A stretch of DNA of 64,000 bases. It comes from Saururus chinensis. Taxonomy: Eukaryota; Streptophyta; Magnoliopsida; Piperales; Saururaceae. Under the pieces are notes generated by a model that worked only from the letters and a program-made list of their open reading frames with translations, searched no databases and was not told the DNA's origin. This document shows, in pieces, positions 12,118-52,691 of the stretch (position 1 is its first letter; every line of letters starts with the position of its first letter). The stretch lies in assembly GCA_035235625.1 (NCBI GenBank), contig CP141146.1, forward strand, positions 2,784,501-2,848,500, in the 5' to 3' direction. Made by a program: the position numbers and the translations under genes.

Positions 12118-12119
12118 TA

Positions 12120-13452
12120 CTCCCTCCGTCCTATTTTAATAGCTCCAATAGGAAAAAATAAATGTTCTACATTAATTGCTCCATTTCTTTCCATTTAAGC
12201 CGAAATGAATCTCTCTTGCTTCTCAGGCGCGCAAAAAAGGAATAATCTAATATCACAAGAAAAAAGCACTGAAACTGAGATGACCAGAAGAGCAATGAGG
12301 CGACTCTCCCGGCCACGTCCTCTCCGGCGAAAGAGTACCCCCCGCTAAACACCGCCGAGTTGTCCAACCCCAGCATCATCTTCACGTATGCGTCACGCAA
12401 CCGGATGAGCAGCCGCTTTGGCGTGCTCAGTTGAAAAAACCTCAGCCTAGCACGATACTGATCCTCCAGAAGCACCGCCCGACCCTCCTCCCGGTGGTAG
12501 AAGAGACATCGCAGTGAAGAAACGGTAAATTTGGGCTCTGCCGGTGGGTATTTCTAGAATAGCAGGATCTCGTCGGGGAGAAGCACGGCGTCCTGTATCT
12601 TGGCGTGCAGACGGGGGCTGTCTATTCTGTTTCCGGGGAACAAATATCCGCCAGCAGCATCGCTCTCACGTACGGCGGAGTTAGTCCCGTCAACTCCACC
12701 GGAAGGAGGCAAAACTGGCCGGAAGGAACCTGCAGGAAGCATGTGATATTCATCCTTCATATCATGCGAAGCAAAAATATAAGATATTTAGCACAGAAAC
12801 TGGATATCATCACAGCTACAGAAGGAAATATGTCATATCAATAACATTCTATTGAAATATTGCCCACAAGCTAAATCTACTCAATACTGGACACGCCAAG
12901 TTTTCTGCACTCCTGCAACTCCATCAATCACCATATTGCTCATTGTGGGAATATCTTCTGCTTACCGGAAAAGAGTGGAAGGGCTGAAAAGCTGAAGGCG
13001 AAGGCGACAAGGAACATGACGACGAGAGCAAACCAGAGTGACTTCTTCATCTTCTTCATTGATCTCAGCATCAACTTCTCTGCATGGTGCAAGTTGAGCA
13101 TAAATAAAGCAAAGTCTGGGCTAGTTTCCTCGGAAGAATAGTTTCCTGAGCGAGTAGGTTTGACCTCTGGCAGTTGCAGGCGGGTTAACAGAGGTTTCCT
13201 AAGATGGGTTCTTCTTCTTCATCTTCCTACGTGCTGTACAAATCCTTGGATCGCTTCAGATTCCGGTTTTTGACCAACAATTTGTAGAGTTTCATGCGTT
13301 CGTACGCACGCTGATGACTCTTCCTCATTAATACAACCGGTTTCTTTTGTTTTGACTCCGTGCTTCATTATTATCGTTAGATGCTTAAGAGAAGCTTTTT
13401 GATAAAAATAACAAAAAATAGAAATGGAGCTATTAAAATAGGACGGAGGGAG
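12120..13452. mobile_element. 1.33-kb Stowaway-ended (Tc1/mariner-type) element carrying a gene fragment
   Basis: The two ends are perfect inverted repeats of 28 bp beginning CTCCCTCCGTCCTATTTT. TA dinucleotides at 12118-12119 and 13453-13454 form the target duplication typical of Stowaway/Tc1-mariner elements. At 1333 bp it is far longer than an ordinary Stowaway MITE (usually below about 500 bp). It encodes no transposase I can see. Its interior is filled on the minus strand by a spliced plant gene fragment, given separately. Identical ends suggest fairly recent movement. Confidence 0.85.
12167..13101 (-). pseudogene. Captured gene fragment inside the Stowaway element (possible GT92/DUF23-like)
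   Basis: Exon 13101-12966 encodes an N-terminus with one strongly hydrophobic segment (SLWFALVVMFLVAFAFSFSA), as in a type II membrane protein. A GT donor follows (CCG|gtaagc). The second exon begins at 12739 after ctgcag and stays in frame to 12167. It reads through DAVLLPDEILLF, an in-frame TAG at 12553-12555, then KYPPAEPKFTVSSLRCLFYH. The pattern LPDxxLxF-x-YP resembles the start of plant family-92 glycosyltransferases (DUF23), but the catalytic region is absent. The later segment STPKRLLIRLRDAYVKMM looks like part of another plant protein that I cannot name, so the piece may be a chimera of two captured fragments. The family call is a weak inference; the splice structure and the nonsense codon are seen directly. 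Confidence 0.6.
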
Positions 13453-13898
13453 TATTAAAGTGATGCTTAGATATTATTATGGAATTATGGTTATTACTTG
13501 TTATAATCCATGTTTATAATATTATAATTTTTAAAACTTGTAACGATGAATTTTGTTTTAAATAAATTAACTTATATAGTGTTTAATCCAATATTTCATA
13601 CATGCTTTGGATTAGCACTATATAAGAAGGATTCGAGCAAGGATCGAGCCAGTATTGAACCTCCCTGTGGTATGTATTCAAACCCAAACCGAACTCGAGC
13701 TTTGAGGTTCATATTTGAACTGATAGCAAACCGAATTCTTAGATGTTCGATTGAACTCGAGCCCAACCCCAAATAGTCAAGCTCGATCCGAAAAATTCAA
13801 AAACATGATTTGGTTCATCATGTTAGCACTCCTATGGCTTATTGATAGGTCAGAGAGCTTGTCGAGCTTGCTTTGTTTGACAAACCCATGGTACCTGT

Positions 13899-16127: not shown

Positions 16128-16318
16128 CCCTCCATCCAATATTTATAAGTTACATTGGGTTTTCATTGAATGGTGAAACCCACATTTAAAAGAAGAAAAA
16201 ATAAGCTTATGATATTCTTTCTTAAGTACCTAACTATTTAAATTTAACAAAATAGAGCTAATAATATAAAACTAATTTTTTTTTGTTAAATGAAGCTATT
16301 AATGTATGATAGAGGGAG
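16128..16318. mobile_element. Degraded Stowaway-like MITE
   Basis: About 191 bp. The ends read CCCTCCATCC and ATAGAGGGAG, imperfect inverted repeats, and TA flanks both sides (16126-16127, 16319-16320). The terminal sequences resemble those of the 12120-13452 element, so they belong to the same broad superfamily. It is non-coding. Confidence 0.6.
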
Positions 16319-17742: not shown

Positions 17743-19392
17743 ATGGCCACCCTCCTCGTCCAAGCTCCTCGTCCAAGTTCTCCCAAGCTTCTTCTCTTCT
17801 TCCTCCTCGCCACCCTCCTCGTCCAAGCTCCGGCAGGAGCGGCTACATGTGCTGACTGCTTCACACAATCAAGGGCTGCTTACTACCCCAACTCCGATGA
17901 GGCTGGCACAGAGAGTGAGCGATCTCCCACAGACATTATCCACATTTTAGATGAACTGCGCGCATGTGTTTCTCTGCAGTTGGATAACTGTTCTTAAAAG
18001 TTTACTCACTTGTTTAATCAAATCTGCAGATGGGGCATGCGGTTTTGGCAAATACGGAGCAACACTCAACGATGCCGACGTATCAGCTGCATCTGATCTT
18101 TATAGGGGTGGTGTTGGCTGTGGAGCTTGCTATCAGGCAAGAATAGGCTTCCCTCAGTACTGAACTGTGCTACTGACACTTTTTTTCATTAGCATCTCTG
18201 TAGAGTCTAGATGATTAATTATAAGCTTGTTATGGCTTGATTACACCAGGTTAGGTGTACAAACCCGAATTATTGCTCAGACAAGGGTGTGAATGTGGTC
18301 ATCACCGACCAAGGCTCCAGTGACCGCACAGACTTCATACTTAGCCGGCGAGCTTTTGGCCGGATGGCCCAGACCCAGGACGCAGCCGCGTCTCTGTTGG
18401 CACTCGGCGTTGTTGATATTGAGTACAGAAGGTAGGCTATCTTCATTGTCTTAACTGAAGTTTGGATAATAACTTAAACTAATGTAAAGAAATACTCCCT
18501 CCATCTTACATAATAATTACATTTAGTTCTTTAAGAAGAACTAAAAAAAAATGTAGCTATTAATGTGGACACTAACAGGCATGCTTGCACATGCATGAGG
18601 TAATTCTAAGTGATAGGATCATATGATATGAGCCCATGAGGTGCTATAGTGCTATGGAGGTTGGATGGTGATTTTAAGTAATTTTAAAGCTCCACAAGTG
18701 CCTGCCACCTAATTATGCACTTCAAATTGAACAGTTGAGTGGCATGCACTTCCCCGGGGGGACCTAATATAGGCCGTCACTCTAGAAGAAGAGAATCCGG
18801 GTCCTCTTACTCCTAGCAATGTTATTAGCATGGAAGTCAAGTGATGAGACGTTTAGTTGATCCTCCTATTTACTTATCCAGAGCGGGTGCTTGACTAACT
18901 TTGGTGGTGGCAATGGCCTACTTGCAGGGTTTCTTGCAGCTACACTAGTAAGAACATCATGTTCAAGATTGACGAGGCCAGTAATTACCCTGACTACTTG
19001 GCCTTTGTGATTCAGTACCAACAAGGCAAGAGGGACATCATAGCCGTTCAGCTCTGCGAGGTGATATTATGTCTCTTGATCATCTTTTTCCTACTGTAAA
19101 GAACTATTTTTTTGTTTGGCCATATATCAGTTTAGTTTGTGTATATTTAGTTTCAACTTTCTTGATACGGCGTGTGTATGTACAGACTGAAAACCAAGTC
19201 TGCAAGCTCTTGGATCGCAGCCATGGCGCCGTGTGGGCAGTGGTCTCCCCCCCCAAGGGATCCCTCACCATAAGGATGCTTCTAAGTGGAGGAGAAGATG
19301 GCGATGAAGAATGGCTAGCTCCTACCAACGACATACCTCAGGACTGGAAGGCTGGAGAAGTGTACGACTCAGGCGTCCAAGTAGATTCTTAG
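17743..19392 (+). CDS. EXLA: Expansin-like A protein
   Basis: Complete 266-aa secreted cell-wall protein of the EXLA family, which has the expansin fold but no proven wall-loosening activity (family knowledge). Five exons: 17743-17914, 18030-18136, 18250-18431, 18928-19060, 19186-19392. A signal peptide covers about residues 1-34 (hydrophobic [11 protein letters not shown], ending AGA-A). The six-stranded double-psi barrel domain follows, with GACGFG, CGACYQVRC and [14 protein letters not shown]. The C-terminal CBM63-type domain contains SHGAVW and ends [14 protein letters not shown], typical of EXLA. Intron 2 begins GC (CAG|gcaaga) rather than GT; the reading frame and the conserved CYQVRC junction require this. 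Intron 3 carries a small MITE. The start codon lies in a short duplicated segment: ATLLVQAP is encoded twice. Confidence 0.95.
18495..18580. mobile_element. Decayed Stowaway-like MITE in EXLA intron 3
   Basis: CTCCCTCCATC follows a TA and leads into arms that fold on themselves (TTAGTTCTTTAAGAAGAACTAA). The right end has decayed, so the far boundary is approximate. It lies within the third intron of the expansin-like gene. Confidence 0.45.
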
Positions 19393-19933: not shown

Positions 19934-21898
19934 TCAGACTCTTAAAAGAGATTGCCCATTTTGCCTATCAACAACGAGCTCACAAGAAGACTTTATTCTG
20001 GATCCCATCTCGCTTAGCATAGAATATATCATTTTTCTCTTGTGAACTGAGCCACTGGCAGCTAATGTTTCCACCTGAGCTTCACTATGATCAACTAAGC
20101 TATGCCCTGCAGTTTTCTGCAGGCCCTTCTCCTTCATCATCTCTCTCACCTTCTCAACTTCTTCCCACCTACCTTCTGCGGCATAAATATTGGACAGTAA
20201 CACATATGGTCCTACATCTCTTGGCTCCAATTCTATGAGCTTCTTACATACAACTTTCCCAAGATCAAAACTGTAATGATTTCTACATGCGGTTGATAGG
20301 GCTCCCAACAAGGCCGGAGGTGGTTTCATTGGCATTGCCTCCATCAGCTCCGTTGAATCCTTCAACAGCCCAGCTCGACCAAGGAGATCCACCATACATC
20401 CATAGTGCTCGACCTTAGGCTCAATCTTGTATATTCGACGCATACGATCAAAATACCACCACCCCTCCAACACCATTCCTCCATGAGCACAGGCAGACAA
20501 AAGGCAGATAAAAGTCACATCATTTGGTTTTGGCCCTTTTTTCTCCATCTCTAAGAACATCTGAATGGACTTCTCGGCCTGGCCATGCAGGGCATACCCC
20601 ATAATCATAGAATTCCACGACACAACAGTCTTCTTTGGCATATCATCAAACACTTCCCGTGCCATGTCCATCTCCCCACATTTTGCATACATGGTCAACA
20701 AAGCTGTCAACAGAAGCACGTCGGACTCAACATTCTCATCGTTTTTAACATAGGAATGGATCCATTTCCCCTTCTCGAGCTCGCCTGCATGCGCGCAAGC
20801 TGTAAGCACACTAACAAAAGTCGCTTCATTTGGCTTTGCTTCTCCTGAATTCATCATCTTGTCAAACAATTTTAAGCACTCATCGTATTTCTTCTTCCGG
20901 GTGTAAAGTGACAAAATGGTGTTCCACGTAACAAGGTTCCGAACCGGCATCCGATCAAATACCTCCCGCGCCACCTCCACATTCTCAGCTTTCACATATC
21001 CCTCAATCATGGAGTTCCAAGAGACCATGTCTCTGGTCGGCATGGCCACAAACAGCTCCTCAGCATTGTCAATTTCGCCCATCTCCATATACCCTGAGAT
21101 CATCGAATTCCAAGTCACCAAGTCTCTTTCAGGCATTTCATTAAACATACGCCTCGCGGAATCCACCATCCCATTCTTCGCATACCCATCGATCATCGAG
21201 TTCCAGGTAACCAGATCCGCTTCAGATCTTTCATCGAACAACTTGCAAGCAGGACCAACCATCCGGAACGCAAAATACATATGAATCATAGAATTCTGCA
21301 CAAACAAATTAGAGCTCAAACCATACTTCACCGACAACCCATGGGTCTTACCTCCCTCCTGGGGCAGGTCGAGCGCAGCAGATATCTTCGCCAGGAGGGG
21401 AAAGCTGTAGTGATTGGGTTTGACGCCTTTCGTGACAACTAAGCGGTGGTAGAAGCTAAGGGCGGCCTCGGGTTCGCCGGAGCTGAGGAACGACCGGAGA
21501 ATGGTGTTGGCAATGAAAGCGTCGGGAGCACTGAGGTGGGCGAAGAGGGAGACCGCACGGGGAATGGAGGAAAAGGAGCGGCAGAGGCTCTTGACGGCCC
21601 GGCCAGCGGCGAGAGGGTGGTGGAAGAGGCCGGTGAGAAGGAGCTGGGCGTGAATTTGGTCGAACAGTTTCAGCGATCCATTGAATCTCTCGAGCAGGCG
21701 CAGAAGGGGATGGCTGAGCTTCAATGTCCGGACACCACCACCGGCTGGGTCGTCCCCGTCTTCCTCCTGCTCCTGCTTCCATATTCTGATTCCGGGCGGT
21801 GGAGATTCTGAGCCTTGTGGGGGCCTCTGTGACCTTGCAACGGAGTGGATGGTTGAAGACATGGAGCTGGTATAACACAGCCTTGGCCCAACGGCCAT
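19934..21898 (-). CDS. Pentatricopeptide repeat protein, PLS class, E subgroup
   Basis: Intronless gene for 654 aa. PPR proteins bind single-stranded organelle RNA, one base per repeat, and PLS-class members act mostly in C-to-U editing in mitochondria or plastids (family knowledge). Repeats run from about residue 90 to 500, recognisable by DLVTWNSMIDGYAKNG, DMVSWNSMIEGYVK, NLVTWNTILSLYTRK and VVSWNSMIMGYALHG. The E region follows with VEHYGCMVDLLGRAG, LLSNIYAAEGRWEEV and AGHSLVDH. There is no DYW deaminase domain, so if it edits RNA it would need a partner. The N-terminus is serine-rich and could be a transit peptide; Met13 (MSST) is an alternative start. I cannot assign an orthologue. Confidence 0.96.
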   Translation of the reverse strand: MAVGPRLCYTSSMSSTIHSVARSQRPPQGSESPPPGIRIWKQEQEEDGDDPAGGGVRTLKLSHPLLRLLERFNGSLKLFDQIHAQLLLTGLFHHPLAAGRAVKSLCRSFSSIPRAVSLFAHLSAPDAFIANTILRSFLSSGEPEAALSFYHRLVVTKGVKPNHYSFPLLAKISAALDLPQEGGKTHGLSVKYGLSSNLFVQNSMIHMYFAFRMVGPACKLFDERSEADLVTWNSMIDGYAKNGMVDSARRMFNEMPERDLVTWNSMISGYMEMGEIDNAEELFVAMPTRDMVSWNSMIEGYVKAENVEVAREVFDRMPVRNLVTWNTILSLYTRKKKYDECLKLFDKMMNSGEAKPNEATFVSVLTACAHAGELEKGKWIHSYVKNDENVESDVLLLTALLTMYAKCGEMDMAREVFDDMPKKTVVSWNSMIMGYALHGQAEKSIQMFLEMEKKGPKPNDVTFICLLSACAHGGMVLEGWWYFDRMRRIYKIEPKVEHYGCMVDLLGRAGLLKDSTELMEAMPMKPPPALLGALSTACRNHYSFDLGKVVCKKLIELEPRDVGPYVLLSNIYAAEGRWEEVEKVREMMKEKGLQKTAGHSLVDHSEAQVETLAASGSVHKRKMIYSMLSEMGSRIKSSCELVVDRQNGQSLLRV

Positions 21899-22179
21899 CC
21901 CAATTTGAACTGATTTTGGCTGGACTCGCCTCTCCTGAGCATCTCCATGTTCTCACATAAGAGAGGACGGCCAGTAGCAGCAGCAGGCCATCTTCATGCA
22001 CACTTGTAGCTATAATCTACTGCAATGCAGGAAGCTGGGTCATTGAAGGGTGACTCGTCCAGGTGCAACAGAGCTAAAATTTCTTCTTCTTCTTCAATGG
22101 CCACCATGTAACAAATCACACTGATTGGGGAATTAAATTAATTCCCGCTTGGACGGCTCCCAATCCTTTACTCAAACTC

Positions 22180-27709: not shown

Positions 27710-30639
27710 TTCAAAATAAAAAAAACAGTTTTTTCCATATTACCTTGCCGAAGAATGAAAATTTCTATATTCCGTAAGTTTTAAACACAAATGTCATATA
27801 ACCTATTTTTGGACAAAATTGCCCTTAGGTTTCCACTATCCCATATAACATAGAACTCTATAATATAATAAATGCCTACGGGAACAGTGATGTGCCATTT
27901 CGGTGTGTTTCATTAGCGGCCAACGGAAGTCACTGGTGGGAGGTAAATGACGGTAACTCCCCGGAGAGCATCGTTCAACAAGAAAAAAATATTTTTTTGA
28001 CACCGCAGACGATTTGTGAGGGCTCCAAAGGCTGTATTTCGTAGAATCAATCCTTCTTTTACACTAATCATAGATAGGATCGGTACTTACATACATTACA
28101 ACGGAGAGGTAGACAATGATGACATGTATATTGGTGGAATTACACAGTTGATGAACATTCATCCGTCGGTGAGCTTTAGTGAGTTGCTGGTTCTAGTCAA
28201 AGCATGACTTGCCGTCAAATGGTCATGTCACTTTGAAGTATTTAATTTCATCTTCACAATCATCCATGATAAATGAATTACAAGATGATGAGGACCTCCA
28301 ATCAGTGTTCTTCATTCATAAGAAGGCGAATAAGGAGGTGTTATCATTATATGTTGAGATGAAAGAGCCCGACAACAGTGACAAATCACCATATGTAGAA
28401 AGGAACCAGACATCCAATAAAGCTAAATCACTGGTCGTAATGGCTCAGCCCAGCTCTAATGTCGAATTTCATACCAGATTCAATGAAACACAGTTCACAT
28501 TTGAAACTGTCAGGTAACAATGAATCTTTAGATTATACGCAATTGGACATTTTTGTGTACTCGAGACCACGATATAGACCATATCGTGTTAAGTTAAAAT
28601 CATATCGTGTGAAGAAAGAAACACGATGTGTAATATATTGCATTAGTAATTATACGACATCCACATGTGATATATCAATTATGATTTTCAGCATAGATAT
28701 AATAACATGACATGCATTCATGTTGTGGTTTCGATAACACGATTTGAATTGTAAGTGTGTTAACCGAATACACGATGTTGAGTGATGCCGCATTTTTTTA
28801 ACATAATAATGTGCAATGCAGATTGGGAGAACCAGGAAACTTGCCCTCAACAAATCCATGTTATTCTTCTTTCACCAATCCAATGAGTACATAATCTGAA
28901 ATATAAGTCAATTAGAATAGATCAGAGGAATTGTCACCGATGATGGGTGGGAGAAGGATTTCATTTGATAACTACGAACCTCCATACAACCCTTGTAATT
29001 ACAACAGTGAAGAAGGCGAAGAAGTTGAGAATATGTGGGGTGAGGATAAGTGGTACGATAATGATATAGTTGACATGGAAAACATGTCTAACCACGAAGA
29101 ATTTGGAAATAGCAAGGTTCCCAGTAATGTCGACGTTGAAGTGGATACAAATTGGGATACAGTCGATGATTTAAACATGTTAGAACCGAATATTGGTGAA
29201 GGCCAGCTAATGATGAACAATTTGCAAGCTAAGGATTGCCAAAAGCTCCTCAAATTGGGCACACATTTTCTTAGCTTGTTGCATTTCAAGAGGATTTTGA
29301 TCGACTTAGCAATAAAGGCGAATTTTACACACCGTGTTGTGGATGAAAATAGGAATACGTATGCCGCAAAGTGCTACAATAATTCTTATAACTGGTACAT
29401 AAGGGCTTCAAATATAGGAGATCATGTGATTGTCACGAGGTTAGTGCCGAATCATTCATGTGGAACCCAAAGGAAGTCAACTGACCATCCCCTAGCATCA
29501 CACCTTTGGATTGCGAGAAAATGTTATGGCCTATTTAAAGACTCAGTGGACATTATACCTAAGAGCATAACAAGTTATATTTTGAAACACTGGGGCATAA
29601 CTACGAACTACAAGAAATGCTGGTGTGCAGGTAATGTATGAGACTAATCGAAGTATTGATTTAGTGTCACGATATGTTAGTCTAGCGTGTTATCGTTTAC
29701 ACGCTTATACTACAGTTGCATTTTGCGCTCACATGACATATGTACATATCATGTTAACATGAACATGATCAGTCATCGTACATGGTTTCCGATCACACGA
29801 CTAAAAACAATGTCGTGTGATCTGGACCACGATGTAAGCCACTATCGTATAACCTTTACTAAAGTGTATTAAGTCGTACAGGTAAAGCACTGACTGATTT
29901 AATAGATGGGGACCCAGACAAACCCTACCGCATACTTCTTGCTTACAAAAGGTAGATAGAATATATAAATCTAGGAAGTATAGTTGTTCCAATGAGATTA
30001 TGTGATATTCTCGGACCTATAGGTGGGTACGATTTTAAAAGAGTATTTTGGATGTTTGGTCCTCTTGTGAGAGCTATTAGAACAACACTGAGGCCATTGC
30101 TAATGGTAGATGCAACTTTCTTTAAAGGAAAGTATCATGGACAACTATTGATAGCAACTACATTGGACGAGAATAATAATATTTTGTGTGTTGCATTTGT
30201 AGTGGTTGAGAACGAGTGCGAGAAAACATGGTGCTGGTTTCTTGAGTTTCTTAGAAATCATCTACTCTCTGATCCTTCAACCGAGTTGGATATAATCATT
30301 TCTGTTACACAGAAGGGATCGACAAATGCTATTAAGTAGTTTTTCCCACATCTACACACCATGGATATTGCATCCATCATATGGCAGCAAATATGCTGGA
30401 CAGATTCAAGGACAACTACCTAAAGAACCAGCTCAATGTTGCAACTGAAACTTTCAGCACAATGTGTGTGATGAAATAATGAACAACATTAAAGAACATA
30501 ATCCCGAAGCATATGCTTGGCTAAATAAGATATGTTTGAAGCATTAGGCCAATGTCGCATTTCCGGGGAAAAGATATGGGACCCTAAGCTCAAATAGGTC
30601 TAAAAATGCCAATGCAATGATAAAAAAGCCAGATCGATG

Positions 30640-35570: not shown

Positions 35571-37679
35571 ATAATAACTACCAAATTCCCAATGCATCAT
35601 TCCCGAAGAATCACCACAATGTCTGGTGTATCAATAACTTCCATAACCCGACGATTGCTTTAGCGCCGGATGGTGAATCGACCCCCGATCGGAACAGTCC
35701 TCACCTATATCCGATGGAGGGCATGATTCACTATCAGACGATATATCAATGTGGAACACCAACTTTGTGTTAAGATAGTCCTTTGGCTGCAGACTGACCT
35801 CCTCCTAAGTCATCTTTTTCGCAGCCTCCTCCTCGACCTCTATCACATTGCAGATACTCTCGAGTACTTCCTCATCAACTGGAGGAGTATTCGATTAATT
35901 ACTACCATTGTTGTCACGCCCCGGCACCTGCCTGACATGAGCCGAACCCGGTCCAAGGGCTGGTCGATACACAAGGGGGCGACTAGATTGCATTGCGAAA
36001 ATCTTTAACCCCTTAATTGGGTATTTAATATAAACACAGAGTCGCGCACCTTTAGTCCTTTGAGTAAGAGTAATGAGGTAAAAGTAAAAAGAGGATAACA
36101 ACTCTGATATAAAATCCTGAGCCGACATGTGGCTCGAAACAGAAAATTTAAGACAAGTCTAAAACTAGAAGATACACATGAGTCAGAAACATAGTAACCA
36201 AAACAAGGTGTTTTATGATCATAATAGCATAAATCAGAAGACAAAATAACATTCGATAGCATCCATGCTTAATCCCATGCATATCCCAGTCGTCCCTTAT
36301 ACAGGGAATCTTGATTAACTGCATGTCGTACCATGTAGCCCCAAAACAAAAACATAGAAAGAGGGGTGAGTAAAACTCAGTAAGTTTTGAACTACAGTAA
36401 CATTAATCATAAAAAGAACCACGGTACAACAACATGGTAATTCATATCAACATTTTATATAACATCCCTATTTTTTATTAATCCCCCTAGTTCCATAAGT
36501 AATCATCCTGCATACGAGTATCTCATACATGCTAATCATGGCTTTAATAATCACATCATAGCACAACATCAATCCTACATAATAAGTGATTATCACACAA
36601 TCATGCATATCAAGTCATTCTCCTTCATAGCATTCAACCTGTATAACATGTGTACTCAACACATAATCATATAATACAAGCTCATATTATTCATCCATAG
36701 CTCATTCACCCTGCACGATAAGAGTCTCAATCATACAATACTAAATCATGCATAATAACTAATATTCACATGTGTCACATAATTACAATCATCCCTACAC
36801 AACCTGTGTAACATTGGCATAATATTAACTTATGCACATGCATCATCAACAAATGGTGAATGTCTCCATCATGGAGAGAAGTACAATCAAGCTACACAGG
36901 TTGGACATAGTCCGATTTTCACACACGAAACGTAAAGTGTTCGGGGTAGTCAGCTCCTCAATCTACTCGCCCTGGACAATCTTGGCCAAGGAATGTCTGA
37001 ATCTCACATTGTAACGCCAGAGATTTTTCATCCCTTTTTCTTAAAACTCATAGAATTTTTTTTTATATGTTAAATCGGAGTCAAAATGACAAAATCAAAA
37101 CCTGTATAAACAGTTTATAATTTTAAAACATCACACGGTTAAACATTGTACCGTCAAATCAAATATCCTCAGGCGCTACTCGAAAACACACGTACGACTA
37201 AATAACCATGATCATGGATTTTTAAATACAAATAACTCCCAGGCGTCCTCGAGTACAAGTCCCATAAACAGTCTACTCTGATCCAAATTAAAAGTCCAGA
37301 ATACATACACTTCAATCTCATCAAATACATCAGGTCGTGACACCAAATATACTTGAGTCGAGGGGGAACAATCCACCGAAAAGACGAGTGTCCATCTCTA
37401 GGAGCTCACCAACACATACCTGCAAAAGCCTCCCGAACAATGGGGCTAAAAGAAGTAGGGTGAGTATTTTCATACTCAGTAGGAAAATACTCAGTAGGGG
37501 AAACCCCAAACGGTGAACTCAATAAGTTCATAAATCATGTGTCATGCAACACAACATGAGGCAAACAACGTATATCAATTATGCTCATATCCAACTAATA
37601 ATGCATAGCATACCATGAAACCAAACTCATACAAACACCCTTAATCAGAGTCTTACAAACATACTCATCCCAACATACG

Positions 37680-37905
37680 CTAACTCATACAACTTACTCA
37701 ACTTGTACGACCTTACTCGTACAATCTTACCCTTACTCGTACAGTCTTACACTTACTGTCGAACTCATATTCAAACTCTTACAGTCGTGCTCAAACTCAC
37801 ACTCTTACAGTCGTACTCATCCTCAATCTTACAGTCGTGCACATACTCATCATCACACGCTTACTCAGAAACGCACAAACTCATTCATACAGTCGTATAC
37901 ATACT
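37680..37905. repeat. Minisatellite of CTCGTACAGTCTTA type
   Basis: Short irregular repeats of ACTCGTACAATCTTA and TTACAGTCGTACTCA run for about 220 bp. A longer version lies at the equivalent place in the second element (43340-43680). Confidence 0.7.
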
Positions 37906-39459
37906 ATCGACCACTGAAGCTCATTACAACTAATAAGCTCCAACGTCGAAAAGGAAAAGAATGCCACTGGGGCATCACCTTAACCTCCGGGGAGTGACTA
38001 GACGCCATGGACTTTTTCGAAGGTAAGGTACACCAATGCTCATGGGGCACTGGATCAAACAGGTAAGAGTAGATCCATGATACTACTTACCTGAGCGCGC
38101 AAACATACACCCACACAAGGGGTCATACAATTGCCCACACATAAGGGGTCTTATAGTGCCATAGAATTGCCCACCATAATGGGTCTTATAGTGCTAGAAA
38201 ACATACAGTGCCACTTGGGCAGAAACGTACAGTGCCACTCTTGGGCGGAAACATACAACACTCTCAACAGAGCATCAAACGTCTGGGCTTGTACAGCACA
38301 CAGACCGAATCAAAAACATACTTCGCTCTCAACAAAGCATAAAACGTCTGGGCTTATACAGCACACATACCAAATCAAACATACATCGCTCTCAATAGAG
38401 CATCAGACGTCCGGTGCTCTATATAGCACACAGACAAAAATCCCGCAGGATAACAACCATGGCAAGACACAAGAAGTGCTCAGCCGATTCATTATCGGCT
38501 AGCTCAAACACGGAACTTAATCCATCGAACCCTCAGGTCTCAAACTCACAACGCTATTATTAACGTTCTCATAATTCAAGTTTGAATTAAGTATATTATG
38601 CGGTACAATTATGCCACACAAACTCAGTCCTCGACTGATCAAACTGAAGCTGAGCCCGATCTGAACCCTAGTTCATCGGGGCAGCAGACTTCACTTACCC
38701 GTCCAGGTCACACATAACTCACCGTATACAAATCCTTATGCACGCATACATCCTTTGACATCCACCTTACGATCAGACATCTTACTTACATCGTCAAACT
38801 GAGCTCCTCACAGTAGATCCCTGTTATCAACCTCTTACTTAATTCCTCACTTATTATACTTACTTTTCACTTCATAATTTGTACGTTATGCTTGTACAAT
38901 TATGCACGCTCTTACTGTCTAATAAACCCTCATAAGGCTCCAAGCCTAAGTCTTCTTACTTACCGAACCCCTGACGTATACTCCAAACCAAACTGACCCA
39001 TCTCAAATCCTCGCTCCTCAAACTTACTTTCTCTGTCTTCCGTCGTGCGCTTACACATCCAAATCCACATCCAACTTCATACCAAACCCTTACCAATCTT
39101 ACAGTCCATCGCCCATACCTCTGCCCACACAGTCCACATACGTAACTTACTTGACATCGCTAGCCATCACTAGCGTGTCCATCATACACATACGTAGCAC
39201 ACTAACATATTCGCAAGCCATCACTAGCGCATACATCATACACATACATAACCATGCTTACAACTCACATACATACATACATGTATCTCAATGTGGCATA
39301 ATTCACTATCTTACATCATGCATACATGTCATGATTTAATATCCAAAACATGGAATCATACAAGCCTAGCATGCAGCTACTCAATCAAAGTATGCTGTCA
39401 TGAATTTACGAGTTCAAAGCTCCCCTACCTCGTAATCATGACGTTTGATGGCGAGCACA

Positions 39460-41450
39460 CGATGGTGGCGGCATCGATGGTGGAGTCAGTGGTCAACATC
39501 ATTGCCTAGCTGAGAGAGCTGTTGTCCCGAGGTTTTTAAGAAGCGCCGGAACTACACACGGCCAAAAGGGGTATCAAAATCAACGCGGCAAAATCCGCGA
39601 TCCATGGCGGCACACTAGGGGCAGCCGGGAGAAAGATCGTGCCAATGAGTGGCAGGTGCAACCGGAAGGCAGGGTGTACTCACTAAAATTCGACCGGCGG
39701 TTGAAAAATACACAACCGGTCACAAGACGTCGAAATCGGCCGTGGACAGCACCCAACGACGTCGATTTCACGTTTACCAGGGCCCACATAAGGGCGGAGG
39801 GTGTAGGTGACACTCAAGGACGGAGGAGACTGATGGAGGACTCCGATGTCAACTCTAGATGATGGTAGAGCCATCTGACGGTCGGGCGGCGCCAAAGCGG
39901 CATTGATACCCTAACCCGCACGCGCGGCTACTTGCACACGCGGCCAAGGGAAGAGGGGAGGGCTAGACGGTGTCGACCCAAGACTCGGAAGGGCGGTAGG
40001 GCCATGCCCAAGGGTGGTGACCAACAATACGGCCTTTGCCGTTGCCGTGCCGAGGCAAGCCGACTAGAGGCCAATCGGCATCCGGCGAGGGTAAAACGGT
40101 CAAAGGGCAACACGTGGCGCTCTCTATAGAGCGGTCAGACACAATCGGCAGAGGGGAACCTAGCCCATGTCGAAAGAAGAGGGGCAGTGCCGCACTAGGG
40201 CGGCCAGCCATCCCCAGGCTGAGACCCACCACACTAAGGTGGTCCAAGGGTGTTCGACATCCAACGATGCTCGATGGCCCATAACGGGTGGAAAACCCTA
40301 GGGGCACAATGACGAACAGGGTTTACTGGCAGCTCTGGCCCGTGACACTAGGGCCCTAGTAACCGGGCGGAGCTGGGTGGAGGCGGCTACACCAGTGCCG
40401 CTAGGTCGAGGATGGCCGACCATAAGCTCACCACCAGCGCGGCCACAATTCCCTTCAAACCAAAACAGGGAAGAGGGACCGACCGGGGGAAACCAGCCCA
40501 GGCGGAGCGGCTGTGGGGGCGGTAGACCTAGCTAGGGGCGGTCCTACTGTCGTCATCCCAAGGCTGGTCGGCAAGAGGCGAGCCGAAGGCTGGCTCTCGC
40601 CAGCGTAGCCCCCAAAGTCCGTCACAGACAGAAACAGGGGAGATGCGGGGCGGATCAAATCGGGCTGGGGCGGTGCCGAGGAGGCGGCTTGGCCATCGCT
40701 TGGCCGAGGCAGAGCCAGATAGAGGTCCATCGTCCATGGCTCGCAACTGCCGGCCTCTTTTCCACCAAAACCAATCACCGGCGGAACAGGGGAGGTGGAG
40801 GCATCTGGCCGGAGAAGAAATGCACAAGGACGGAGGTGGAGGTGGAGCTAACCAGTTGGGGGCTGTCCCTGGCCGTCATCATGCCGGGGCGGAACCCACG
40901 ATGGCCGGCTGGCCACTGCCGGCCATCACCGGCGGCGACAAGGCCCAGAACAGAGGGGCGTCGTCTGTTCGGCGAAAAACAGGGCAGAAAAGGGGGATGA
41001 GGATGGGCGGCGGAATGGAGGCCCATCGGGCCGGGAGGGATGGCCTCCCGCCGTGGCCGGCCGGTCGGGCCTTGGTGGCCCACGGCGTCGTCTCAAATCG
41101 GATCATAGTGAGAAAAGGGAGCTAAACGGGGGAGGAGGAAGAAGCTGGTCGGGCTGGCTTGGGCGGCGGCCCTGCTGTCGCCAGCCTGTGGCTGGCCGGA
41201 AGGAGCCCCTCGGCCATCGCCGGCGCCGCCACAGCACCAAACAGAGAAACTATGGCGGAAACGGGAAAACAGGGGAGAGGCACAAGGTGGACGGCGGAGC
41301 GGCCATAGGGCCGGGACGGAGCCGGTGGCGGCGGCCCTTCGGCCCACCAGTGGCCGGCGGCGGCTGGGACCAAGAGAAGCCTGAAGGGGGGTGGGCAGTG
41401 CACTGTTCACTCCAAAAATTTCTGGATCGGGCTCGGCCGAGCCCAAGCCC
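39460..41450. other. GC-rich block of LTR-like copy 1
   Basis: About 2 kb of G-rich sequence with many GGCGGAG, GGCCGG and GCCGGCC motifs, in sharp contrast to the AT-rich surroundings. Open frames on both strands are long here but lack any family motif, so no gene is called. Confidence 0.6.
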
Positions 41451-42618: not shown

Positions 42619-43339
42619 TGTAACGCCCGAGATTTTTCATCCTTTTTCTCAAAACTCATAGAAATTTTTTTTTCTTTCCATAAATCGGAGTCAAAACGAT
42701 AAAATCAAAACCTGTATAAACATTTTATAATTTAAAACATCATACGGTTAAACATCATACGGCCAAAGCAAATATCCTCAGGCGCTACTCGAAAACAACC
42801 GTACGAATAAATTTGCTATGATCATAGACTTTTAAATACAAATCACTCTCCCAGGCATCCCTGAGTACAAGTCCCATAACAGTCCACTGACTGATCCAAA
42901 TGGAAGTCCAGAATAAACATCTTGTGTTCTCATCTCACCCAATACAATAGATCGTGGCACAAATAAACTCGCAATGAGTAAAGCATATACCTGAGTCAAG
43001 GGGAATCAATCCACCGCTGAAACGAGCGTCCATCTCCAGGAGCTCTCTGCACAACCTGCAAAACCTCCCGTACAACGGGGCTAAAAAAAGTAGGGTGAGT
43101 ATTTTCATACTCAGTAGGAAAATACCCAGTAGGGGAAATCCCAAACGGTGAACTCATAAGTTCATAATCACATGCGTCATGCAACTCAAACATGAAGCAG
43201 AAGCATATCATAACCATATCGTGCACATACACATACGATCATATCAAAGGCACCATCGTGCCACAGACATAGCGAAGGCACCATTATGCCAACATCATAC
43301 TGTCCAATCAACTTACACAAACACCCTTATCCAGGGTCA

Positions 43340-43680
43340 TACAACTTACTCGTACCATCGTACGCATACTCATACAACATACGCATACTTGTACGACCTT
43401 ACTCGTACAATCATATGCTCGCTCATGCAGCTTACCCATACATGTGCGACCTTACTCGTACAATCAGACTCGTACGACCTCACTCGTACAGTGCACAAAA
43501 TCATACTTACTGTCTTACTCAGAAACATATTCTCACAATCGTACTCATACTCTTACAGTCGTGCTCATACTCATACGCTTACAGTCCTGCTCATACATAT
43601 TCTTACAGTCTTACTCATACTCACTCTTACAGTCTTACTCATACTCATACAGTTGTACTCGCACACATAATCGTACACAT
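43340..43680. repeat. Minisatellite of TTACTCGTACAGTC type, copy 2
   Basis: The counterpart of 37680-37905, expanded to about 340 bp, with units such as CTTACTCGTACAATC and ACTCATACTCTTACAGTC. Confidence 0.7.
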
Positions 43681-43914
43681 ATCAACGACCACTGAAGCTC
43701 ATTACAACTAATAAACTCCAGCGTCGAAATGGAAAAGAATGCTACTGGGGCAACACCTTAACCTCCGGGGAGTGACTAGACGCCATGGACTTTTCCGAAA
43801 GTAAGGCACACCAATGCTCATGGGGCACTGGATCAAACAGGTAAGAGTAGATCCATGATACTACTTACCTGAGCGCGCAAACATAAACACCCACACATAA
43901 GGGGTCATACGGTT

Positions 43915-44049
43915 GCCCACCATAATGGGTCTTATAGTGCCAGAGAATCGCCCACCATAATGGGTCTTATAGTGCCAGAGAATCGCCCACCATAATGGGT
44001 CTTATAGTGCCAGAAAATCGCCCACCATAATGGGTCTTATAGTGCCATT
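43915..44049. repeat. 35-bp tandem repeat, four copies
   Basis: The unit GCCCACCATAATGGGTCTTA followed by TAGTGCCAGAGAATC starts at 43915, 43950, 43985 and 44020. Copy 1 of the host element (near 38125-38200) has only about two such units, so the array differs between copies. Confidence 0.9.
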
Positions 44050-44992
44050 GCCACTCTTGGGCAGAAAACATACAGTGCCACTTGGGCAGAAACGTACAGT
44101 GCCACTCTTGGGCGGAAACATACAACGCTCTCAATAGAGCATCAAACGTCTGGGCTTACATAGCACACAGACCAAAACAGAAACATACGTCGCTCTCAGC
44201 AGAGCATCAGACGTCCGGTGCTCTATACAGCACACAGACAACATCCCGCAGGATAAACACCATGGCAAGACATGATAAAAGCTCGGCCGACTCATTAGCG
44301 GCCAGCTCAAACACGGAACTTAATCCGTCGAACCCTCATGTCTCAAACTCACAACGCTAACATTAGCTGTGCTTATAATTCAAGTTTGAATTAAGTATAT
44401 TATGCGGTACAATTATGTGACACAAACTCACAGTCCTCCTCGACTGATCAAACCGAAGCTGAGCCCGATCGAAACCCTAGTTCGTCAAGGCAGCAGACTT
44501 CACCTACCCGTCCACATCATGGACAAAACTCATCGTACACCAAATCCTTACAGTCTTACACTTCGCCATCCATCTTATGGCCAAAACCTCTTACACTGAC
44601 ATCCTCGAATAACGCTCCTCATAGCCAACCCAGTTGTCGCCCTCTTACTTATATCTCACTTATTATACTTACTTTTCACTTCATAATATGTACGTTATGC
44701 TTATACAATTATGAACACTCTTACTGTCTGACAAATGCCCAACATACAATCCAACCCAAACCGATCCATTTTAATCCTTGCCCATCATACTCATATCCTC
44801 TGTCCTCTGTCATACGCTTACATAACTGTATCCAAATTCAGACAGAGCTTCTGTCACCTCTTACTGTCCATCGCCCATACTTCTGCCCACAACACTTACA
44901 CATATCCCAAGCATAGGCAAAATGCCATCATACATACGTATGTCTCACACATACGTACAACATACACATACGGTCATACATACATAACTTAC

Positions 44993-45215
44993 AAACATGC
45001 ATGCTAGCCATCACTAGCACATGCATCCACACGTCAAACATGCACGCTAGCCATCACTAGCATATGCATACATTCACACATACATCAAACATGCACGCTA
45101 GCCGTCACTAGCACATGCATACATCAAACGTACACGCTAGTCATCTCTAGCACGTGCACACACACATTCATACATACTTCAAACATGCACGCTAGCCATC
45201 ACTATCACATGCATA
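44993..45215. repeat. Degenerate tandem repeat with GCTAG-CTAGC hairpins, five copies
   Basis: The unit is ACATGCACGCTAGCCATCAC followed by TAGCACATGCATACA, repeated about five times with variable spacers. Each unit contains the small inverted repeat GCTAG...CTAGC. Only a shorter version is present near 39150-39250 in copy 1. Confidence 0.75.
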
Positions 45216-45459
45216 ACCCATACATAGCATACTGACATATTTGCTATCCATCGCCAGCGCATACATAATCCACATCCATAAAACATGCATACATCTCATG
45301 CATATCAATCATACCATACAATCATGCTTACACGCACAACATGCAATCGGATCGTTACTTAACATCCAAGCATGGAATCATACAATCCTAGCATGCTACT
45401 ACTAATTCAAAGCATGCTTCATGAATTTACGAGTTCAAAGCTCCCCTACCTCGTAATCA

Positions 45460-47130
45460 TGACTTTCGATGGCGAGCACCCGACGGTGGCGGCGTCGGCG
45501 GCGGAGTTGGCGGTCAAAACCGTTGCCTGGCTGAGAGAGCTGCTGTCCCGAGGGTTTCAAGATGCGCCGGAACTATCCACGGCCAAACAGAGTGTCAGAA
45601 ATCAATGCGGTAAAACCCGCGATCCATAGCGGCACACTAGGGCGGCCGGGAGAAATATAGTGCCAACCTATGTGGCGGTGCGATCAGATGTCAAGGGTGT
45701 ACACTCTGAAGATCAGACAGTGGCTAAGACGTGCACAGTCGGCCACAAGACGTCGAAATCGGCCGTGGACAGCACCCAACGACGACGATTTCGGTCAACA
45801 AAGGCCCACATAAGGGCGGAGAGCGTGGGGCAACGCTCGAGAATCAAAGGAGAGGTGGAGGACGGCTCTAGTGGTCAACTCCACTCGGTGGCAAAGCCAA
45901 CCGATGGTTAAGAGGCACGAATGCAGCGCCTAAACCCAGAAGTACACGCGTGGCTACATGCGCACGCGGCCCAAAGGGCGGGGGAGATGGCTGAAATGAG
46001 GCGACTCAAGGCCCACAAAAGCCAACAGGGCTAAGGCCCTAACAGTGGCCAATCAAAGCGGCGACATCGCCGATCGTCACCCACAACCAAAACTCATGGT
46101 GCGGGCAGCTGTGCATCTCGCACGGTATAGGGCAAGGGGAGGGTTCAAGGTCGTGCAAAGGCTATGAGGCCGTCACTGGCCAAGGCCTAAGCAGGTGAAC
46201 TCGTCTACCTTCTGTCAAGGTAAGACATATAGATTCTTGCCCGAGGCCGTTCGGTACCAACGGCGTAAAATGGGCAAGAAGGGTCAACGACAAACGTGCC
46301 GGTAAGGCGGACTAGCTGCAGCTACGGGCCGCAAGGCTGAACAAGACCCAGAGGGGTGGCCCATTGGCATCACCGGGCTGGGGCGGAGCCGAACTAAGGT
46401 CCGCTAAAACAAATCCGGCGTCCGACTGATAATGTCAGTCACCACGTCCAAAACGGGCGTAGGCCAAAAATATGGGACGACCGGAGAAAACCCATAAGGG
46501 CGGAGCGGCCATGGGGGCGGCGGCTGAATCGGGCACGGAGGTGTAGTCCATTGCCTTCGCCGGAGCAAGGCGAGGCTGGGGGAAAGCCGAATCGGCCACG
46601 AATCACCGCCGGCAGTCACTGTTTGCCCAAACAGTCCGTCAGCGGAACAGTGAAAAAGGGGGAAAAGAGGATGGGCGGCGGAACGGAGGCCCACCGGGCT
46701 GGGAGGAGTGGCTCCTCGCCGTCGCCGGTCGGTCGGGCCATGCCGGCTCGTGGCGGCGGCAGAACGGCGATACATAGTGGGGGCGGAAAATAGGGCAGCA
46801 GAGAGAGGGAGCGGGACGGCGGAGCTGGGGCCGTCCGGGGCCGGGGGGAGTATCCTCCCGCCGTCGCCGGCCCATGGCGGAGCCGTGGGTGGCCGGCCGG
46901 CACTCGCCGGCCCACGGCGGCGGCGGAATCAAAAAAACACAGTGGGGAGGCTAACCGGAAAAAGTAGGGGCGGAGCGGCCGTGGGGCCGGGACGGCGGCT
47001 CCCCTGCCGTCACACGGCCAGGGCGGAGCCGGTGTGGCGGTCCAGCGGCCTGCCGGCGGCCGGCGGCGGCCGGGCACAGGGAAAAGGCGGAAGGGGGCGG
47101 GGGCGCACTGTTCATCCAATTCCTGGATCG
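45460..47130. other. GC-rich block of LTR-like copy 2
   Basis: The counterpart of 39460-41450. It is dense in GGCGG, GCCGGCC and CGGAGC motifs. No coding family is recognisable. Confidence 0.6.
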
Positions 47131-50199: not shown

Positions 50200-51558
50200 C
50201 TCGCCGTGGAGGGTGTGGATGAGTTTCATTCGCCAAAATGTCTATGTACCCGCCTTCTTAGCCTTCGGGGTCGCCCTTTGGCCATCCATCAAGTGAGCCT
50301 CTTCTGAAATTGGTGTGATTCATATAATAATTTGGGAGTCTAGCTTCAGCTGCATAAAGACCTCCTCATACCACTTCCTCATTCGGTGATGAGCTAGAAG
50401 CTTCTTCCTCGATTTTTCGTCAGCTGGGTCAAGTTTAACAGCCTTCTCTATGTCGCTCAAACGTTGGGTAAATCATGGCCATCTCTTGCACCTTGGGCTA
50501 CATAGATGACCACTGGGAGCCCATATGGATGTATGCTCATAAAACCATATTTGGCCAACAATACAAAAGAAAATGGTTAGTAGTGTAAGTATGACAATTT
50601 AGTCGTATTACCGATAACACACTTTGAGGTCAAATAGTATTATCGATAATACGATAGTTCATCATAGTGTAATGTCCTCTACACAATATTATACTTAGTC
50701 GTGTTACCAATCATATGATAGTTCTACGTGCGTGTTATATGTCGTATTTTTGATAACACGATCGATTTGATATTGTGAGCGATATGACGATATATATGTG
50801 TTTGTAAACATATTGTGTCATTAGATAGACGAGAATGAAATTTATCATGGTATATAAAATACGAGTGTTACTTGGAGCACTAATGAAGCCCCAATGAGAA
50901 TTTCGGCCATGGCGGAACACTCATCCTGTCTGCTCATGATGTTTCAGTGAGCTGTTGATATGGCTCTCATCAACATATCATATACGACGCTAGCCCAATT
51001 GTAGCTCCCCACGATCGACAAGTCATCCATGTAATCACATAGAGATGGGGATATGACTCTGTTGCTTTGTGTGAATAACATGAGGACACCCATGTGCACA
51101 ATAGCCAATTGTGCAAAGTCCTTGTCTGAAATAGATCGTGTTTCGGCATCCACTTCTTTCAACATTTCTTCAAGTCTTGTCTTCCCTGGCCGCTTCCCTT
51201 GGAAGAACTTATTGTAGAATTGCCCCTTGCCTTGGGCAGCCTTCCTCTCGCTACTTTTCAATTTACACTGGTTTCTTTTTCCACTCAAACCTGTTATCAT
51301 TGCCACTTTATCCATAGTAAGGGGTAGTCTTTTACCTCTTATGTTAAAGACCTCATGTGAGTCATCCCAACACTCACCAATGAGAACATCCAAGAGCAGC
51401 CTGGAGATGATGATGGGCTCACAATCATATACTGGGCAAAAACCTGACTCCACCAAGATGGCTTTACAACAAGAACGTGAATCTACAAGTTTTTTTGATA
51501 GACGAAGTCCAACGGGAAAACTATTCGTTCCTAGATTCGGTCTTCTCTCGTAGATCAT
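50200..51558 (-). pseudogene. DUF1985-type gene carried by the MULE (ULP1-like family relative)
   Basis: An open stretch of 204 codons (51558-50944) has the layout of plant DUF1985 proteins: FNIRGKRLPLTMDKVAMITGL, then the AIVHMGVLMLFTQSNRVISP segment, then YNWASVVYDMLMRAI. The frame continues past an in-frame TGA at 50944-50946 through AMAEILIGASLVLQ to a GT donor near 50873. The next piece at about 50560 reads IWFYEHTSIWAPSG, the expected continuation. Such genes, often fused to a C48 (ULP1) protease, travel inside plant MULEs of the Kaonashi type (established knowledge). No protease catalytic motif is visible here. The downstream part is low-complexity and may be lost to the LTR insertion. 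Confidence 0.75.
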
Positions 51559-52691
51559 CTTCTTTTTTTCTTATGTTGCCTTCACTGACTCCACCATTTG
51601 CTATAATGCTCTAACTTTATATCTGCAAAATTGGATAAATATATGTATATCAACAAAGGGTCGTGACCATAATCAATAGTCGCGTCGATTTACATTATCT
51701 GACTAACTTCTATTTATATGATAAGTATATCTATCATGTTATTGAACATACGATAAGAGAATCTCTCTTACACGATATCATAGCAGTTGAATATCGAGTT
51801 GCCAACGTCTTCTCGAACACAGGATATATGATTTATCATCTTTATGCAAACATAATAGTTTGCTTCGATTGCATATGTCGTGTGCTTTCATACACGCCAA
51901 ACTAAAAATCGTGCATACAAATATCCAATGTAGATTTTGGTAAAGGCCTTGCAACAAAACCACCATTGATTTTCTCCAAACCAGATTAACCCCTCGTTCA
52001 ACCGCTGCTTTTCTAAAAAATTTACTCCTTTATCGAGATTGTGTCAAACGGAACCTCGCTACACAGCAAAAACTAACCTTGGGGCGTACAATTTCAAAAT
52101 CAATTTGCAAAACAAGATAAAATAAAATTAACGCCAGAGTGTTTTTCAAAAACTCGTTCCGAAATAAAAACAACCCTAATCTTCAATGTTTAGTCGGATA
52201 GGTCGTAAAATCTCATCTCGCATTGTGTGAACACCACTCAATCAGAGGACTTTTAAATTAAAACAAACTTTTCAATCGAAAAAAACTTTTCAATCAAAGG
52301 AATCACTGGCGTTTTAAAATCGTTTGCATGTAAATGCGACTTCGTGAAGATTTTACACGATATAAAACCCTATCTCTGGTCAAAAATATTTTTGTCCAAA
52401 ATTTATATTATATCATGTTATTTGATGACATTTGTGTTTAAAATTTAGCTAATGAAAATTTTCATACTTTGGTCAGTCAATATGGAAAAAACATAGGGAC
52501 TTCAAAGTATTGAGGACTACCTTAGTAGTTAAAAAATATGAACAACTGCTTCTTAGTTGAAAATCAGACAATATGTGTGGACAGTTGTCTCCATAACTGC
52601 TGACAACTCTCATTAATTTCTTCATGGCTTCAACGAAATCAATAACAGCTTCTATTACAAAAGCGTTTGTGAAGAGTTTTCCTCTCTCGTG

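Follow-up and report, generated by a model that had tools for sequence, protein, structure and literature searches.

Features of the Window and Boundaries of the Element

The window, by which we mean the whole 64-kb stretch of Saururus chinensis DNA analysed, contains at positions 12120–13452 an element of 1,333 bp, with GATA immediately before it and TATTA immediately after it. About 3 kb from the element lies a Stowaway-like MITE (16128–16318), whose ends were read by eye and whose left end is degraded. An Expansin-like gene was recognised by eye at 17743–18435 and 18495–18569, where two exons match Pfam DPBB_1 (PF03330, 1.2e-13), and a Stowaway-like end starts at 18495, just past the third exon, as read by eye. 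Further along, a PPR gene with the E motif occupies 19934–21952 on the reverse strand as a single open frame of 672 aa. We take a MuDR transposase piece (PF03108) on the forward strand at 28916–29641 and a DUF1985 piece (PF09331) on the reverse strand at 50944–51570 to be typical plant transposon debris. Two related blocks of about 3 kb, at 37010–39799 and 42619–45821, are 79–87% alike in their matching pieces, carry many short tandem repeats, and are probably copies of one larger repeat. Searches of the window with Rfam at gathering thresholds and for tRNAs returned nothing.

The element is bounded by 28-bp terminal inverted repeats of the Stowaway type, one at 12120..12147 on the forward strand and the other at 13425..13452 on the reverse strand, which are identical in exactly 28 of 28 bases and start CTCCCTCCGTCC. 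Terminal inverted repeats of the CTCCCTCC type, a Stowaway / Tc1-mariner feature, are thus present in the element and correspond to the Stowaway consensus. With flank included, the arm pair at the element ends extends to 41 nt at 93% identity. The TA target-site duplication, also a Stowaway / Tc1-mariner feature, is present at both sides (12118..12119 and 13453..13454). The earlier note had described perfect 28-bp Stowaway-type termini with a TA duplication around 1.3 kb, and both this description and its coordinates proved exact. TA is the duplication given for virtually all Mariner elements detected, in the part of the study by Gisby and Catoni (2022, PMC8903248) drawn on here.

The flanks of the element are palindromic at 8 of 12 positions; this is at most a weak hint of target preference, because 50 of the 4,701 TA sites in the window equal or exceed this value.

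Probable Exons and Intron of the Interior and Its GT92 Resemblance

The interior, read on the reverse strand, has the layout of the 5' part of a spliced gene. An upstream stretch (13072..13419), assigned by position and possibly the 5' UTR or promoter of the captured gene, precedes the 106-nt coding part of exon 1 (12966..13071), which begins with an in-frame ATG at 13071 and encodes a hydrophobic N-terminal stretch; this stretch, recognised by eye, is read as a putative membrane anchor. The intron (12730..12965, 236 nt) has the borders GTAAGC...CTGCAG of the GT-AG type. It is followed by the 5' part of exon 2 (12269..12729), whose low end was placed by eye near a drop in GC content, and which contains an in-frame TAG at 12554..12556. 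Exon 1 has a GC content of 0.481, the intron one of 0.373 and exon 2 (12291–12729) one of 0.576; the values for the 1 kb on either side of the element are 0.275 and 0.31.

The longest stop-to-stop frame wholly within the element measures 128 aa, and a Pfam scan of interior pieces, covering some of the frames, brought up no transposase and no other domain at cut-off. On both counts the element has the non-autonomous character, without a transposase, that marks Pack-Mariner elements. Below the cut-off lay matches to SurA_N_3 in exon 1 (E 0.032) and to DUF3599 upstream (E 0.18), and a comparison of the exon 2 product with solved structures gave 0 matches. A second captured gene was considered upstream of exon 1, where a stretch was translated in two frames, and in exon 2 past the end of the GT92 alignment described below; it was rejected, as neither place gave a Pfam match at cut-off. 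Frame openness was likewise dropped as proof of coding: a sense frame of exon 2 with at most one stop occurred in 893 of 10,000 mononucleotide shuffles, a level of about 9%, which is not significant.

For the identity of the cargo, we aligned the interior to a putative reference sequence of 578 residues for one castor-bean GT92 protein. In Pfam the GT92 domain of this reference spans residues 295–521 with 143.9 bits, which confirms only that C-terminal part. The spliced product aligned across the exon junction with the N-terminal part of the reference at a score of 69, the best of 2,000 shuffles reaching 59, over a span of only about 110 residues that ends near 12464. The best unspliced frame of the element scored 55, and none of 289 other stretches, read in six frames each, exceeded 53 (300 had been drawn at random from the window, and the 11 near the element were left out). 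With softer gap penalties exon 2 alone scored 62; when the fragment was shuffled 2,000 times this score came up once, and when the reference was shuffled 2,000 times it never did. BLASTP of the fragment against the reference gave 26 bits and, counted as a single comparison, 5e-04. In a tblastn search of the window with the same protein the element ranked first, but with E values of 0.43–0.60.

Pfam PF01697, the GT92 domain itself, did not match the fragment, as would be expected if only the N-terminal part of a gene was captured. Accordingly, "fragment of a GT92-like gene" denotes resemblance and not membership. Judged from the sequence, it is likely but not proven that the cargo is an N-terminal fragment of such a gene, and we hold this with moderate confidence. 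The earlier note had seen a two-exon gene piece with one nonsense codon here; the GT-AG borders, the intron of 236 bp and the single TAG are all in place, and we infer its gene nature from the splice borders and their phase, the GC contrast and the modest GT92 alignment. An internal stop, together with a cargo in which Pfam detected no GT92 domain, makes it most likely that the fragment is decaying.

One Unit or Two Insertions

We scanned the window for opposing ends that lie next to a TA, differ from the 12-base Stowaway pattern by at most 4 mismatches, stand 60–2,500 bp apart and are alike in at least 16 of 24 bases. The only pair recovered was that of the element itself, and after shuffling of the window in 500-base blocks none was recovered in any of 20 trials; the scan is strict enough to have overlooked the degraded MITE at 16128–16318.

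Matched ends, the TA duplication and the lack of a clear internal opposing end support reading 12120–13452 as one unit, and the gene-like interior has splice borders in phase. The main alternative, which we consider unlikely, is an ordinary gene-fragment pseudogene flanked by two independent Stowaway insertions that have lost their inner halves, so that the ends only seem to form one element and never moved together. The earlier note had named two independent MITEs as the finding that would overturn its reading. When up to 2 mismatches of 12 are allowed, the inside of the element contains no end in the opposing orientation, and two MITEs standing back to back were rejected on this ground; for the same reason, neither of the termini can clearly be called a full MITE on its own. 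At 3 mismatches of 12, three weak opposing sites appear (12701, 12717 and 13223), which judged by eye are probably not ends, and they count in favour of two insertions.

The difference between the two ends beyond the 28-bp repeat bears on the same question. At the left end, a copy of the inner motif of the terminal repeat recurs 36 bp inward on the forward strand (12170..12186, 14 of 17 bases), with a score that 0 of 2,000 shuffles of that stretch reached; it was also returned by a search for repeat pairs. The right end has no such copy inward, the best candidate matching 10 of 17 bases and being equalled by 1,002 of 2,000 shuffles. This inequality would suit two insertions, yet the neighbouring MITE is built in the same one-sided way: its right end has a second motif copy 38 bp inward (equalled in 1 of 2,000 shuffles), and its left end has none (1,384 of 2,000). 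The third Stowaway-like end, at 18495, has no second copy either (1,536 of 2,000). The first 79 bases of the element, a left end derived from a transposon (12120..12198), are 72% identical over 81 aligned columns to the right end of the MITE. The shared asymmetry argues for both ends being parts of a single element from a local family, with the comparison comprising two elements (n = 2), the second of which has a degraded left end.

Two insertions are also favoured by the fact that no sister copy was seen within the 64-kb window, where neither a second copy of the element nor a parent gene was found. In a comparison of the element with the window at E < 1e-3, the sole match besides the element and its own ends was the MITE end near 16.3 kb. 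In IMG/VR, where plant sequence is not expected, 16 stretches fitted a peptide pattern, none of them a relative, and 24 bases of the element end had 0 exact matches. Against two insertions stands the fact that two convenient losses would be required to leave a TA duplication and perfect ends with no clear opposing end between them. The published capture model described below starts from the same state, and all that separates the two readings is whether movement of the unit followed.

That the interior is a Stowaway-family element's own or random DNA, with exons arising by chance, is very improbable: the level of about 9% for exon 2 openness and the absence of Pfam matches at cut-off in the pieces scanned agree with it, but the GC contrast of exon 2 with the intron, the matching splice phase, the hydrophobic N-terminus and a GT92 alignment that improves after splicing speak against it.

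Overall, we regard the element with good confidence as a non-autonomous Stowaway/mariner Pack-TYPE (Pack-Mariner) transposon whose cargo would be the 5' portion of a gene from the host, probably one related to GT92 (DUF23) glycosyltransferases. The weak stand-alone link to GT92, the unremarkable openness of exon 2 and the three weak internal end-like sites weigh against this reading, as does the fact that neither a sister copy nor a parent gene nor an empty site was seen in the window. The unit with its cargo is a putative mobile one, known from one copy in the 64-kb window.

Probable Capture of the Cargo and Comparison with Known Elements

As the intron is retained, DNA and not a spliced messenger would have been captured, and the earlier note's argument for capture at the DNA level is supported by the 236-bp intron in the interior. 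The captured DNA would run from exon 1 through the first intron into exon 2, perhaps preceded by part of the upstream region. The pieces could have been joined at the DNA level when two Stowaway ends that had come to flank a gene were mobilised together, or else while a gap was being repaired by fill-in; the two routes cannot be told apart from a single copy. A mariner-like transposase acting in trans may then have moved the 1.3-kb unit to its present site.

The first of these routes corresponds to the capture model in the portion of PMC8903248 used here, in which a pair of elements that lie close together and have compatible ends moves as a single unit, taking along the DNA between them. The same source reports Pack-Mariner elements, with a stronger accumulation in rice than in maize, and describes most Mariner Pack-TYPE elements as low in copy number; the earlier view that gene capture is rarely described for Stowaway/mariner-type elements is therefore out of date. 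Pack-Mariner elements, as presented there, and our element are alike in their Stowaway/mariner ends, TA duplication and lack of a transposase, and would probably also share the presence of host gene DNA inside. They differ in that an intron is directly visible in our element, whereas the word "intron" is absent from the main text of PMC8903248. The element thus adds to a described class and opens no new one.

Stowaway MITEs share with the element the type of terminal repeat and the TA duplication but have a short non-coding interior, in contrast to its 1,333 bp with gene-like cargo. Pack-MULEs and gene-carrying Helitrons also carry gene fragments, but their ends and duplications are unlike those of the element, which is not a member of either group. 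PIF and hAT elements of grapevine that show transduplication, as described in PMC2528002, captured exons together with introns in a cut-and-paste transposon, as our element appears to have done. These are superfamilies other than that of the element, and the same study did not succeed in detecting a Tc1-mariner element in grapevine.

A further possibility, to which we attach very little weight, is that the Stowaway element forms a single mobile cassette in which a promoter, a start codon and a membrane-anchor exon with a usable splice donor are packed together. If this were true, a gene into which the cassette inserted could gain an N-terminal anchor through exon shuffling.

Taken as a Pack-Mariner transposon, the element is one clean case which suggests that a piece of a gene, intron included, can be carried between Stowaway ends, and it supports capture at the DNA level in the mariner superfamily.
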